DNA from: Marinobacterium lutimaris | Lineage (GTDB): Bacteria; Pseudomonadota; Gammaproteobacteria; Pseudomonadales; Balneatricaceae | Assembly (NCBI RefSeq): GCF_900108065.1 | Contig: NZ_FNVQ01000001.1 | Coordinates: forward strand, 62,001 to 126,000 | Length of the DNA stretch: 64,000 bases | Reading direction: 5' to 3' | In this document: positions 19,835 through 23,126 of the stretch, in pieces | Layout of the letters: the number at the start of each line of letters is the position of its first letter | Numbering within the stretch: the stretch's first letter is position 1 | Program-made: the position numbers and the translations under genes | Notes under the pieces: model-generated | What the model saw: the letters and a program-made list of their open reading frames with translations, nothing else | Databases searched by the model: none | What the model was told of the DNA's origin: nothing

Positions 19835-19901
19835 TTGTTGAATCATTTTCAACAATCGGTTGTTAAATTTTATAATGCAAATAAGATTAGTTATCATTAG
19901 T
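19835..19901 (+). promoter_or_regulatory. exbB promoter with Fur-like box
   Basis: A -35 TTCAAC (19848-19853) and a perfect -10 TATAAT (19871-19876) are 17 bases apart. Immediately downstream, AAGATTAGTTATCATTAGT (19883-19901) resembles the Fur consensus with its repeated NAT triplets. The -35 region is also covered by an inverted repeat TTGTTGAA/TTCAACAA (19835-19842, 19848-19855). The box sits over the expected transcription start, so iron repression of the operon is likely. Confidence 0.7.
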
Positions 19902-19946: not shown

Positions 19947-20900
19947 ATGAGTACGGAAGCTGCAGCAGTGGCTGAAACTGAAGAGATGTCGGCAACGGCA
20001 GGTCAGGCGCCGGTCAATGAGTCCGTTGAAGCAACGGGCGGTGCTGAAAATACGGCAGCCGAAAACGCAGGCACCGGGAATGTAGCCGCTGCAGATGGCG
20101 CGACTACCGATGCCTCTGCTGGTGGAGAGGGAGTTGGAGCCGTTGACGCTTCCACGCTTCCTGTCGATGCGGCAGGCGCGCTGCCGGTGGATCCCTCTGC
20201 GGACCTGACTGCCGGGATGCCGGCTGAGCCGATGAGCCTGGCTGACCAGGCGGTGGATTTCCTGGTGGTGGGTGGTCCTGTTGTCTGGATTCTCTGTGCT
20301 TTTTCCGTTGTTGCTCTGACCATTGTGCTGCTCAAGCTCTGGCAGTTCGCTGCCATGCGACCGGAAAGCACCAAAGATATCGATCAGTCTCTCGAGCTCT
20401 GGGCAGTGGGTGATCGCAAGGGGGCTCTGGTGGCTCTGAAACAGCAGCGCCCCGTAGCTGGCCTGGTTGGCCTGGCGATGAAGGGTGTTGAGGCCAAGCA
20501 GGAGCTGAGCCTGCTGCGTGAAGAACTGAGCCGTGTCGCAACCCAGCGTCTCGGTCAGATGCGCTCCTTCCTGCGCCCGCTGGAAGTGATCGCCACGCTA
20601 AGCCCGCTGCTGGGTCTGCTGGGTACGGTGCTGGGTATGATCGTTGCGTTTAAACAGATGGAAGCGGCCGGCAGTCAGGTTGATCCGTCCGTACTGTCTG
20701 GTGGTATCTGGCAAGCACTGCTGACCACGGCAGTGGGTCTGGCGGTGGCTATTCCGGTCATGACCATCCACAACTGGCTGGATCGCAAGGTCGAGCGTGT
20801 TGCCGTGCTGATGAACGACTCGGTCACCCGCGTCTTTACCAGCGGTATCTCTAAAGAACAGGAAGCGGTGGAGCGTGAGGTTTTCCGCAATGCTGCTTGA
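19947..20900 (+). CDS. exbB: ExbB-type proton channel subunit with long Ala/Glu-rich N-terminus
   Basis: The protein is 317 aa. The first ~95 residues are a low-complexity Ala/Glu/Gly/Thr-rich stretch without a clear signal peptide. Then come the three membrane helices of the MotA/TolQ/ExbB family: PVVWILCAFSVVALTIVLLKL (about 110), LATLSPLLGLLGTVLGMIVAF (about 215) and GIWQALLTTAVGLAVAIPVM (about 253). The last two carry the channel motifs. It energises TonB using the proton gradient. The extension before helix 1 is longer than in E. coli ExbB. Overlap with exbD1 is 11 bases. Confidence 0.88.
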   Translation: MSTEAAAVAETEEMSATAGQAPVNESVEATGGAENTAAENAGTGNVAAADGATTDASAGGEGVGAVDASTLPVDAAGALPVDPSADLTAGMPAEPMSLADQAVDFLVVGGPVVWILCAFSVVALTIVLLKLWQFAAMRPESTKDIDQSLELWAVGDRKGALVALKQQRPVAGLVGLAMKGVEAKQELSLLREELSRVATQRLGQMRSFLRPLEVIATLSPLLGLLGTVLGMIVAFKQMEAAGSQVDPSVLSGGIWQALLTTAVGLAVAIPVMTIHNWLDRKVERVAVLMNDSVTRVFTSGISKEQEAVEREVFRNAA

Positions 20901-21288
20901 TGTAGGCACCACACGAAAACCAGCAAAGATCAGCCTGACCCCGCTGATCGACGTGGTCTTTATACTGCTGCTGTTCTTTATGCTGACCTCCAGCTTTATG
21001 CAGTGGCGGCAGATGGATCTGCCGATCCCTACCGCCAGTGAAACACCGGCGCAGGAGTCAGAGGTCGTGACGCTGCGTCTTCTTAATAATGGCGGCGATG
21101 TCAGTATTGATGACAATCGCTTCAACATTCTTGCGGCGGGCGTGCCTGCCGATCTGCTGGGTGATAACGGCTCTCTGATCGCTATCGAAGCGGAAGAGGG
21201 TGTGTCGACCCAGGCTCTGGTTAAGCTGGTGGATCAGCTGCGTCTGGCCGGCGCGGAAAAGGTTTCCCTGGCGGGAGTGCTGCAATGA
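20890..21288 (+). CDS. exbD: ExbD, first copy (with channel Asp)
   Basis: The protein is 132 aa from ATG 20890, with GAGG 9 bases upstream; a GTG at 20875 is less likely. It has a single N-terminal membrane helix, TPLIDVVFILLLFFMLTSSF, containing the conserved proton-carrying Asp, then a periplasmic domain. The start lies inside the exbB reading frame and the end overlaps exbD2 by ATGA. It is the functional proton-path subunit of the TonB motor. Confidence 0.9.
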   Translation: MLLDVGTTRKPAKISLTPLIDVVFILLLFFMLTSSFMQWRQMDLPIPTASETPAQESEVVTLRLLNNGGDVSIDDNRFNILAAGVPADLLGDNGSLIAIEAEEGVSTQALVKLVDQLRLAGAEKVSLAGVLQ

Positions 21289-21719
21289 TCACAGATCACG
21301 GCGCGAGTAAGCGCTCCAGCGGTGATGACGACAACATGATTCCGTTGATCAATGTCGTTTTCCTGATGTTGATCTTCTTTATGATCGCCGGGCAGATCTC
21401 CAAGTCCGACCCGCTTGAGACCACGCCCCCTGAGTCTGTTAATGATCAGCGGCTGACCGACAACGAGTCGATCGATCTGCTGGTTTCTACCGATGGTCAG
21501 ATCTATGTCGGCGACAAACTGGTCACCGAAGATCAGTTGACCGAGCAGTTGAGCCTACTTGTTGATGCGGCTGAGGATGTCAATTCGCTCAGCGTGAGAA
21601 TCAAGGTCGATGCGGACCTGCCGGTGTCTGAGCTCAAGCCCCTGCTGTCGAAGGTGCGTGAAGCTGGCTTGGTGAAGGCATCGCTGATTACCCGTCTGCG
21701 TTCAGAGGAGGCATCATGA
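21285..21719 (+). CDS. ExbD, second copy (Asn in place of the channel Asp)
   Basis: The protein is 144 aa of the ExbD/TolR family with membrane helix MIPLINVVFLMLIFFMIAG near residues 17-35. At the position of the invariant Asp it has Asn, so it should not carry protons itself. The periplasmic domain is longer and more acidic than that of the first copy (LLVDAAEDVNSLSVRIKVDAD). Since ExbD forms dimers inside the ExbB pentamer, a mixed dimer with the first copy is plausible. Coupled to both neighbours by ATGA overlaps. Confidence 0.85.
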   Translation: MITDHGASKRSSGDDDNMIPLINVVFLMLIFFMIAGQISKSDPLETTPPESVNDQRLTDNESIDLLVSTDGQIYVGDKLVTEDQLTEQLSLLVDAAEDVNSLSVRIKVDADLPVSELKPLLSKVREAGLVKASLITRLRSEEAS

Positions 21720-22549
21720 CACTGGGGGGAAGACATTGGATTGTCGCGCTCGCCATTGCTGTCTTTGTTCACGCGGGTGTATTCGCCGTGGTGATGGCGC
21801 GGGAAACGGAGGCTGAAGGCGCCCAGGATCTGGGTGAGAGCGGTATCGAGATAGACCTGGGCATGATGGGCGATGTCGGCGAAGCCGCTGAGGCCAAGGA
21901 AGAGGCGGCGCCTGAGCCAGCCGAAGAGGTTGTAGAACCTGAGCCTGAGCCGGTTGAACCACTGCCCGAACCGGAACCTGAGCCAGACCCGGAACCTGTC
22001 GTGGAGGAGGCGCCTCCGCCACCACCGCCCAAGCAGGAAGCGGTAGTAGAGGTGAAGAAGGAACCGAAACCGGAGCCGCCTAAACCCAAGCCAGAACCTA
22101 AGCCCGAGCCGGAACCGGTAGAGCCGCCGAAAGAGCCGGTGGAAAAACGGGCCGAGGTCAGCAGTACCGCCGCGAAGGTAGCGGATGAGAAGAGCGAAGC
22201 GCAGAGCAAGCAAAGCACCGGTAGCGCCAATGCCCAGACCCAGGGTGGTTCGCCGGCGGCCAGGCAGACCTGGTTCTCTCAGGTGGCGGCGCATCTGGCG
22301 CGACACAAGCGTTACCCGAGCTCTGCCCGTCGTCGCGGCCAGGAAGGTGTTGCCAAGCTCTCGTTCGTGGTTGATCGCAATGGGCAGGTACTGGAGTTCA
22401 AGCTGGTAGGCAGTTCAGGATTCCGTTCTCTTGATGAGGCGGTGATCCGAATGCTTAAACAGGCCGAGCCGCTGCCGAAGTTCCCCGCGGAAATGACGCA
22501 GGACTCGTTGAGTATCACTGTACCTGTGCAGTTCGCAATTCAGTCCTGA
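21716..22549 (+). CDS. tonB: TonB
   Basis: The protein is 277 aa. One N-terminal membrane helix (IVALAIAVFVHAGVFAVVM) is followed by a long Pro/Glu-Pro/Lys spacer (EPEPEPVEPLPEPEPEPDPEP..., KPEPPKPKPEPK) that spans the periplasm, and a C-terminal TonB domain with HKRYPSSARRRGQEG and SSGFRSLDEAVIRML. The YP motif and ending VPVQFAI are typical. It transfers energy to outer-membrane receptors for siderophores, haem or vitamin B12; none of these receptors is in the window. Confidence 0.93.
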   Translation: MTLGGRHWIVALAIAVFVHAGVFAVVMARETEAEGAQDLGESGIEIDLGMMGDVGEAAEAKEEAAPEPAEEVVEPEPEPVEPLPEPEPEPDPEPVVEEAPPPPPPKQEAVVEVKKEPKPEPPKPKPEPKPEPEPVEPPKEPVEKRAEVSSTAAKVADEKSEAQSKQSTGSANAQTQGGSPAARQTWFSQVAAHLARHKRYPSSARRRGQEGVAKLSFVVDRNGQVLEFKLVGSSGFRSLDEAVIRMLKQAEPLPKFPAEMTQDSLSITVPVQFAIQS

Positions 22550-22594: not shown

Positions 22595-22636
22595 GAAAAC
22601 ACCCTCTGAGTTGTTACGACTCAGGGGGTGTTTCGT
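22595..22636. terminator. Bidirectional terminator, tonB / hypothetical
   Basis: Arms AACACCCTCTGAGT and ACTCAGGGGGTGTT pair with one mismatch around TGTTACG. A-rich sequence on the left and TTTCG on the right allow termination on both strands. It overlaps the last codons of the hypothetical gene at 22614. Confidence 0.75.
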
Positions 22637-23126
22637 TTATGGAGGAAAGGTAGAAGCTGCGTTCGGTGCAGCGCTCGATATGCTGGATATCGCGCTGCAG
22701 GGCCTGCTTGGCTGCGTCAGGGATTTCGGTTTGCCGGTTGGCTGTAACGGCCTGCAGCGGGCCCTGCACCAGATAGGTGTCGCTGGGCTCAAGGGTCTGG
22801 ATATAGGTGATATCGCTGGAGCGGTGCGCCACGTACAAGCGTCCGTTCAACGCTGAGTGGTTACCATCGGACATCTGGATTCTGCCGTGCAGGCAGTCCC
22901 TGGCACCACCTGCTGCCGTGGCTTCGAACAGGTCGCTGGGGTCCGCACCGGCCATCAACTGGTTGAATTGATGCTCAAATTCGCTTTCCGGCTTTGGGTG
23001 TTCGTGGCTGGCCTGCACAGATTTTTTGTCAGCGGGAGGGGAAAGACCATCGATCAATGTCCCCAGGGTATAAACCCCGCCCGCGCTGACTCCCACCATG
23101 ATCAGCAGGTTCTTGACCAAACTCAT
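22614..23126 (-). CDS. Hypothetical membrane-anchored protein, 170 aa
   Basis: The family is not recognised. The first ~25 residues (NLLIMVGVSAGGVYTLGTLI) form a signal anchor or uncleaved signal, and the remaining 145 residues are soluble, presumably periplasmic, with two Cys (ARDCLHGRI, IERCTERS) that could form a disulfide. It is followed by the shared terminator and separated from the DnaQ gene by 117 bases. Confidence 0.6.
   Translation of the reverse strand: MSLVKNLLIMVGVSAGGVYTLGTLIDGLSPPADKKSVQASHEHPKPESEFEHQFNQLMAGADPSDLFEATAAGGARDCLHGRIQMSDGNHSALNGRLYVAHRSSDITYIQTLEPSDTYLVQGPLQAVTANRQTEIPDAAKQALQRDIQHIERCTERSFYLSSINETPPES

Follow-up and report, generated by a model that had tools for sequence, protein, structure and literature searches.

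An operon-linked pair of ExbD proteins with aspartate and asparagine at the membrane proton site in Marinobacterium lutimaris and related Proteobacteria

The window, i.e., the whole stretch of 64,000 nucleotides of Marinobacterium lutimaris DNA that was analyzed, contains an exbB-exbD1-exbD2-tonB operon, whose four genes overlap throughout positions 19947-22549 on the forward strand (Table 1). The overlap between exbB and exbD1 is 11 nt, and those of exbD1 with exbD2 (ATGA) and of exbD2 with tonB are 4 nt each. Such 4-nt overlaps beside a single exbB suggest that the synthesis of the encoded proteins is coupled. According to Pfam, the gene content of a Ton system is complete, with PF01618, PF02472, and PF03544 found in overlapping genes. 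Upstream of exbB, consensus matching revealed two promoter-like sites in the scanned stretch, compared with 0.8 expected.

Table 1. Genes and features of the ExbB-ExbD-TonB locus (positions in the window)
Feature	Position	Strand	Description
AT-rich promoter-like stretch	19849-19897	+	upstream of exbB; consensus matches
exbB	19947-20900	+	317 aa; PF01618 103.5 bits; pore motif GGIWQALLTTAVGL
MotA/TolQ/ExbB domain of exbB	residues 178-289		long N-terminal stretch ahead of the domain
exbD1, Asp-type ExbD	20890-21288	+	132 aa; PF02472 82.6 bits
exbD2, Asn-type ExbD	21285-21719	+	144 aa; PF02472 82.9 bits
tonB	21716-22549	+	277 aa; TonB C-terminal domain; PF03544 64.3 bits; TIGR01352 68.3 bits (cut-off 27.1)

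Both ExbD proteins exceed the curated PF02472 cut-off of 25.4 bits and both miss the equivalog cut-offs of TIGR02803 (152.95 bits; ExbD1 38.0, ExbD2 39.2), NF008429 (216 bits; 34.3 and 43.1), and TIGR02804 (123.45 bits; 22.6 and 24.1). The N-terminal membrane anchor of TonB is putative, read by eye from the protein sequence. The ExbB N-terminus (19947-20250) forms a stretch of about 100 residues with a high content of Glu, Ala, and Thr; for Serratia, an ExbB with a long periplasmic extension is reported (PMC9008036). A reading frame of 170 aa with no Pfam match adjoins tonB on the reverse strand (22614-23126).

The two ExbD proteins differ at the residue considered to carry protons. In ExbD1, Asp21 is encoded by GAC at 20950-20952 within the motif SLTPLIDVVFILLLFFML, and in ExbD2, Asn23 is encoded by AAT at 21351-21353 within NMIPLINVVFLMLIFFMI. 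When aligned to solved ExbD chains, both residues coincide with Asp25 of E. coli ExbD, which lies in the membrane (numbering of PMC6778125). ExbD2 is thus a member of PF02472 by descent that does not have the catalytic membrane aspartate, and ExbD1 has it. The claim of the earlier note, an Asp motif in the first ExbD and an Asn motif in the second, is borne out by these codons and by the assignment of both proteins to the Pfam ExbD family. The nearest named relative among the matches listed is Marinobacterium mangrovicola (ExbD2 91% identical), in which the residues at the Asp and Asn sites are identical to those of the window. Since GAC and AAT differ by two bases and the relative has the same residues, a sequencing error is very unlikely. 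The host genome (5.57 Mb, 99.4% complete) gave four ExbD-family matches, among which exbD1-exbD2 is the sole pair. The other two proteins, a TolR and one ExbD encoded elsewhere, both have the aspartate; the neighbors of the former are those we take to be the tol-pal cluster, and the latter adjoins a gene that is presumably lpxK.

The distribution of such pairs in relatives was surveyed by several searches, of which the family and class-wide ones began from Asn-type queries and the phylum-wide one from the Asp partner. Among 116 genomes of the family, 28 matches exceeded 80 bits; 27 loci were retrieved, all encoding Asp/Asn pairs, and the match outside this set is a second copy in one genome (G029) with an internal stop. 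Weaker matches in the family included two Asp/Asn pairs with 31% identity to the window protein (L035, L036) and a single Asp-type ExbD (L034). In 20 further regions, hand-picked from the weaker matches of the same search, all nine pairs were Asp/Asn and all eleven single ExbDs carried Asp. The pair is present in at least 38 of the 116 family genomes, a lower bound based on the part of the matches that was read. The class-wide profile search of 369 genomes yielded 30 loci, comprising 17 Asp/Asn pairs (window included) and 13 Asp singles. From the phylum-wide search of 398 genomes, another 30 loci were obtained, with 18 singles, all of the Asp type, and 12 pairs (window included), of which 11 were Asp/Asn and one was Asp/Asp.

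Named genomes were scanned separately, and the best 80 loci from 443 relatives gave 79 Asp/Asn pairs and one locus (L074) with an ambiguous base at the codon, a result biased towards Asn by the use of two peptide patterns, one of which contains this residue. The 79 loci include 65 from Gammaproteobacteria and 14 from Alphaproteobacteria, belonging to 14 named families, with eight loci lacking a family name. The restriction of the earlier note to "this organism" thus proved too narrow. A nucleotide pattern that demands nothing but the Asn motif had matches in 24 genomes of the 369 and in 17 of the 398 (the samples overlap), and the same pattern read backwards as a control matched 1 and 4, respectively. 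It led to 39 loci, six of which were dropped as they contained no ExbD with the motif (L178, L179, L201, L210, L211, L215); in all of the remaining 33, ExbB and an Asp-type ExbD lie upstream. When the residue was read with no restriction by motif (L001-L146), 127 Asp/Asn pairs, one Asp/ambiguous pair, and no Asp/Asp pair were found, together with 18 singles, all with Asp.

Altogether, a readable Asn-type ExbD was found at 167 fetched loci encoding 118 distinct proteins; the latter is the fairer number, as some genomes are repeated, the window locus occurs several times, and the same species enters through two collections. L074 and a locus with a broken frame (L189) are excluded from this count. 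At every one of the 167 loci an Asp-type ExbD is encoded 300-700 nt upstream, so that no Asn-type ExbD lacked an Asp-type partner. The Asn codons in this partly redundant set are AAC in 98 cases and AAT in 69. Because the partner is invariably present and both Asn codons are used, the Asp/Asn pattern goes beyond chance. In this survey for a fixed asparagine, of the kind called for by the earlier note, Asn occupies the second copy in every readable pair except one.

ExbD2 retains its Asn while overall identity falls to about 31%, and the alignments reveal that its membrane helix is conserved about as strictly as that of ExbD1. In these alignments (A1-A4), the rows were chosen by the motif with Asn (ExbD2) or Asp (ExbD1) fixed, making the column itself invariant by construction; A3 and A4 comprise 66 of the best 80 named loci plus the window, with near-copies and short rows omitted. 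Several loci depart from the usual arrangement. The only Asp/Asp tandem pair read lies at L156 (G535, 1479-2365), where the motif of the second ExbD is IPLIDVSMFLLIFF. Very divergent pairs occur at L190, L191, and L189 (G335, G218, and G435), in which the ExbD1 helix contains two cysteines (PMIDVLCCLLIFFM). L189, one of the 33 loci obtained with the Asn-motif pattern, has a disrupted exbD2 frame. Marinobacterium nitratireducens has two operon copies in one genome (L050, L051), with exbD2 broken in L051.

The origin of the two chains was addressed with two trees. The careful tree contained 78 of the 167 sequences that remained after thinning (a number equal to the locus count by coincidence) and was built from 129 columns with the Asp/Asn column removed; L074, L180, and L189 were left out. 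In this tree the 40 Asn-type rows share one side of a branch with a bootstrap of 100 and an SH-aLRT of 78, as do the 30 Asp partners with respect to a second branch (97/83). Such separate branches imply that the two chains have long been distinct. In a quick tree of 97 rows, which includes L074, L180, and L189 mislabelled as single, the Asn types require one change (support 79) and the Asp partners four. These trees indicate that asparagine is retained in one old lineage. The second ExbD of L156 falls outside the Asn group with a weakly resolved placement, and its Asp/Asp pair may represent the arrangement that preceded the Asn. A single-ExbD operon at L139 (G306) consists of a receptor-like gene, an ExbB with a GGIW motif, an Asp-type ExbD, and a TonB-like gene; in the quick tree, its ExbD is placed beside the Asn types with low support (74).

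The predicted structure of ExbD2 has a periplasmic domain with a pLDDT of about 85-95, which matches solved ExbD structures in a comparison made for ExbD2 only, and a membrane part with a pLDDT of about 60. Judged from this model, ExbD2 is not a remnant, given its confident periplasmic fold, though the membrane part is of low confidence. A compensating change in ExbB was also considered. At the position which we take to be that of E. coli Glu176, the window ExbB has Gln. Among 120 distinct ExbBs of Asp/Asn systems, the residue at this site is Q in 78, E in 19, V in 13, A in 4, L in 3, H in 2, and G in 1; beside single ExbDs it is Q in 15, E in 13, T in 3, D in 2, and K and V in one each, with 10 unread. 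The residue does not track the Asn, as Gln is common beside single ExbDs too, and an ExbB change paired with Asn was therefore rejected.

The closest known counterpart of the operon is the E. coli ExbB-ExbD-TonB system, which comprises the same Pfam families, including an operon-linked TonB and an Asp-type ExbD, and whose ExbB pore stretch aligns with that of the window; in contrast, the operon described here encodes two distinct ExbDs, one with Asn. The membrane aspartate is described as absolutely required (PMC12905483). Asp-to-Asn mutants of MotB and ExbD carry the identical substitution, but these are laboratory-made, whereas here the change is natural, conserved, and located beside an Asp copy. 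An example of such a mutant is MotAB D22N, called protonation-mimicking in PMC9389320. Systems that combine a single ExbB-like protein with two ExbD-like ones are already known. The Myxococcus gliding motor AglR-AglQ-AglS likewise has one MotA/ExbB-like and two MotB/ExbD-like proteins, and the same paper states that it is unknown whether AglQ and AglS form a heterodimer or homodimers; unlike ExbD1 and ExbD2, both are predicted to have a conserved aspartate (PMC9389320). The Myxococcus tonB1-exbB-exbD1-exbD2 cluster contains two exbD genes and is likened by gene content alone (PMC11658791). Riemerella has an exbB-exbD-exbD-tonB cluster, compared by gene order alone, and for Xanthomonas and Stenotrophomonas "two exbD genes" are mentioned per Ton cluster, a likeness by description alone. 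The Xanthomonas pair presumably keeps Asp in both copies. Among the PDB chains matched by sequence, listed as ExbD and TolR, there was no entry with two different ExbDs. In the open-access literature searched, no description of an Asp/Asn ExbD pair was found; a study of Teredinibacter turnerae TonB concerns other clusters (PMC10734418). What appears to be new is the conserved Asp/Asn ExbD pair within the Ton/5:2 motor family.

Taken together, the data lead us to propose, with a probability of roughly 0.6, that ExbD1 and ExbD2 form an obligate axle within one ExbB pentamer (5:1:1 plus TonB) that has a single proton-binding Asp and energizes TonB-dependent receptors. In this assembly, whose composition and stoichiometry we infer, the axle would consist of one ExbD1 and one ExbD2. 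The former would supply the sole proton-binding Asp, and the Asn of the latter would imitate a protonated Asp while never carrying a charge, with ExbD2 contributing the second helix and the second periplasmic domain of the axle. With one titratable and one neutral site, states 36 degrees apart would be non-equivalent, and hence the natural period would be 72 degrees. The single site would then drive a cycle with a repeat angle of 72 degrees (5 protons per turn) rather than 36 degrees (10 per turn); alternatively, still within a heterodimer, the second half step might be passive. If the axle is ExbD1-ExbD2, such a one-site mechanism is probably what the sequences predict. In E. coli, TonB-ExbB-ExbD has a 1:5:2 composition with an asymmetric ExbD pair (PMC12215075), and by analogy two specialized chains would fit this asymmetry.

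Several observations speak against this proposal or restrict it. The Asp/Asp pair of L156 argues against Asn being required in every tandem ExbD system. The Asn branch reaches an SH-aLRT of 78 on 129 columns, and the Asp partners are not one group in the quick tree. In E. coli, ExbD(D25N) is described as inactive and gives no cross-link to TonB (PMC11658791), so a chain with Asn might fail to couple. That case presumably lacked an Asp partner, an assumption that goes beyond the cited text. The heterodimer with one proton path suggested by the earlier note, in which both chains would share one ExbB pore, is partly supported, namely by the fixed Asn, by the partner present at all 167 loci, and by the overlaps beside a single exbB.

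The same pattern can be read in other ways. The working motor might be an ExbD1 homodimer in ExbB, with ExbD2 as a separate accessory or regulator, e.g., a chain that binds peptidoglycan or TonB and goes into the pore solely to hold it shut. Such an arrangement would give much the same genomic pattern, the periplasmic ExbD domain is kept, a permanently neutral axle chain could serve as a brake, and a single kind of ExbD suffices for the E. coli 5:2 motor (PMC12215075). We nevertheless consider it unlikely, as the conservation of the ExbD2 membrane helix, about equal to that of ExbD1, suggests a location in the pore, and the one-to-one linkage in an operon with a single exbB exceeds the need of a loose regulator. 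A heterodimer with two proton sites, in which another acidic residue of ExbD2 substitutes for the missing one, would find its candidate in the conserved Asp just before the helix (Asp15, at least 90% conserved). This residue is predicted to lie outside the membrane helix, and an Asp is likewise present in the corresponding stretch of the E. coli-type ExbD, hence it is no new compensating residue; nor does ExbB gain an acid at the presumed Glu176 site. The chance of such a substitution is accordingly small.

Even less probable are ExbD2 homodimers in ExbB complexes of their own, which would not conduct protons but function as scaffolding or for storage. As part of mixed populations they are compatible with all the data, yet the lack of any unpartnered Asn type is at odds with them, and dead complexes would presumably compete for ExbB. 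Neutral drift or a decaying duplicate is hardly credible. The broken exbD2 frame in one of the two M. nitratireducens operon copies would suit it, but the Asn is kept across two classes while identity elsewhere in the protein drops to about 31%, AAC and AAT are both in use, and this conservation already contradicts drift as a general account. The genomic pattern as read from these sequences appears to fit the one-site heterodimer best.

The cellular role of the operon was considered from its neighborhood in relatives. Among the best 80 of the 443 named relatives, a gene of one receptor cluster directly follows tonB in at least 24 loci. Two members of this TonB-dependent-receptor cluster were confirmed by Pfam, and in the window none occurs within 9001-34000. 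Pfam also confirmed a hydroxylase of the PKHD type and an FMN-dependent dehydrogenase, the clusters of which are found in 17 and 19 loci, respectively. Members of all three clusters recur downstream of tonB in L116 (9267-13712) and similar loci. The recurring set after tonB might form a siderophore-iron module that can be transferred. In 48 of 77 regions upstream of exbB, no more than 2 of 50 shuffles equaled the best match to a Fur box, as defined by a consensus we take to be that of Fur; the other 29 do not show this, including the window, whose best match (12/19, 0.2) is weak and non-significant. With no site of three or fewer mismatches to the consensus in the window, iron regulation from the window's own sequence was dropped. 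Judging from relatives, the Ton motor probably energizes TonB-dependent receptors with iron-siderophores as the substrate.

The pair may bear on how 5:2 motors work in general. In the review PMC9389320, the turnstile model assigns one proton to every 36 degrees, the universality of 10-fold symmetry among 5:2 motors is called "almost certain", and the rotary scheme treats both axle chains as equivalent, with the sites alternating. In one model of the Tol system, the two aspartates swap their protonation at each 36-degree step, as described in PMC12905483. We give even odds to the broader claim that there is a natural and ancient class of Ton systems with a heterodimeric axle, exactly one proton site, and a 5-fold, 72-degree cycle with 5 protons per turn, in which alternating protonation of two aspartates would not be needed for force. 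If true, the one-site axle would break the 10-fold, two-Asp scheme of 5:2 motors and would provide a natural test of rotary models. Nature appears to have lost one of the two sites and to have kept this loss over two bacterial classes. Because ExbD1 and ExbD2 can be separately labelled and mutated, both the need for two aspartates in the cycle and the rotation itself would become testable without engineered chains.
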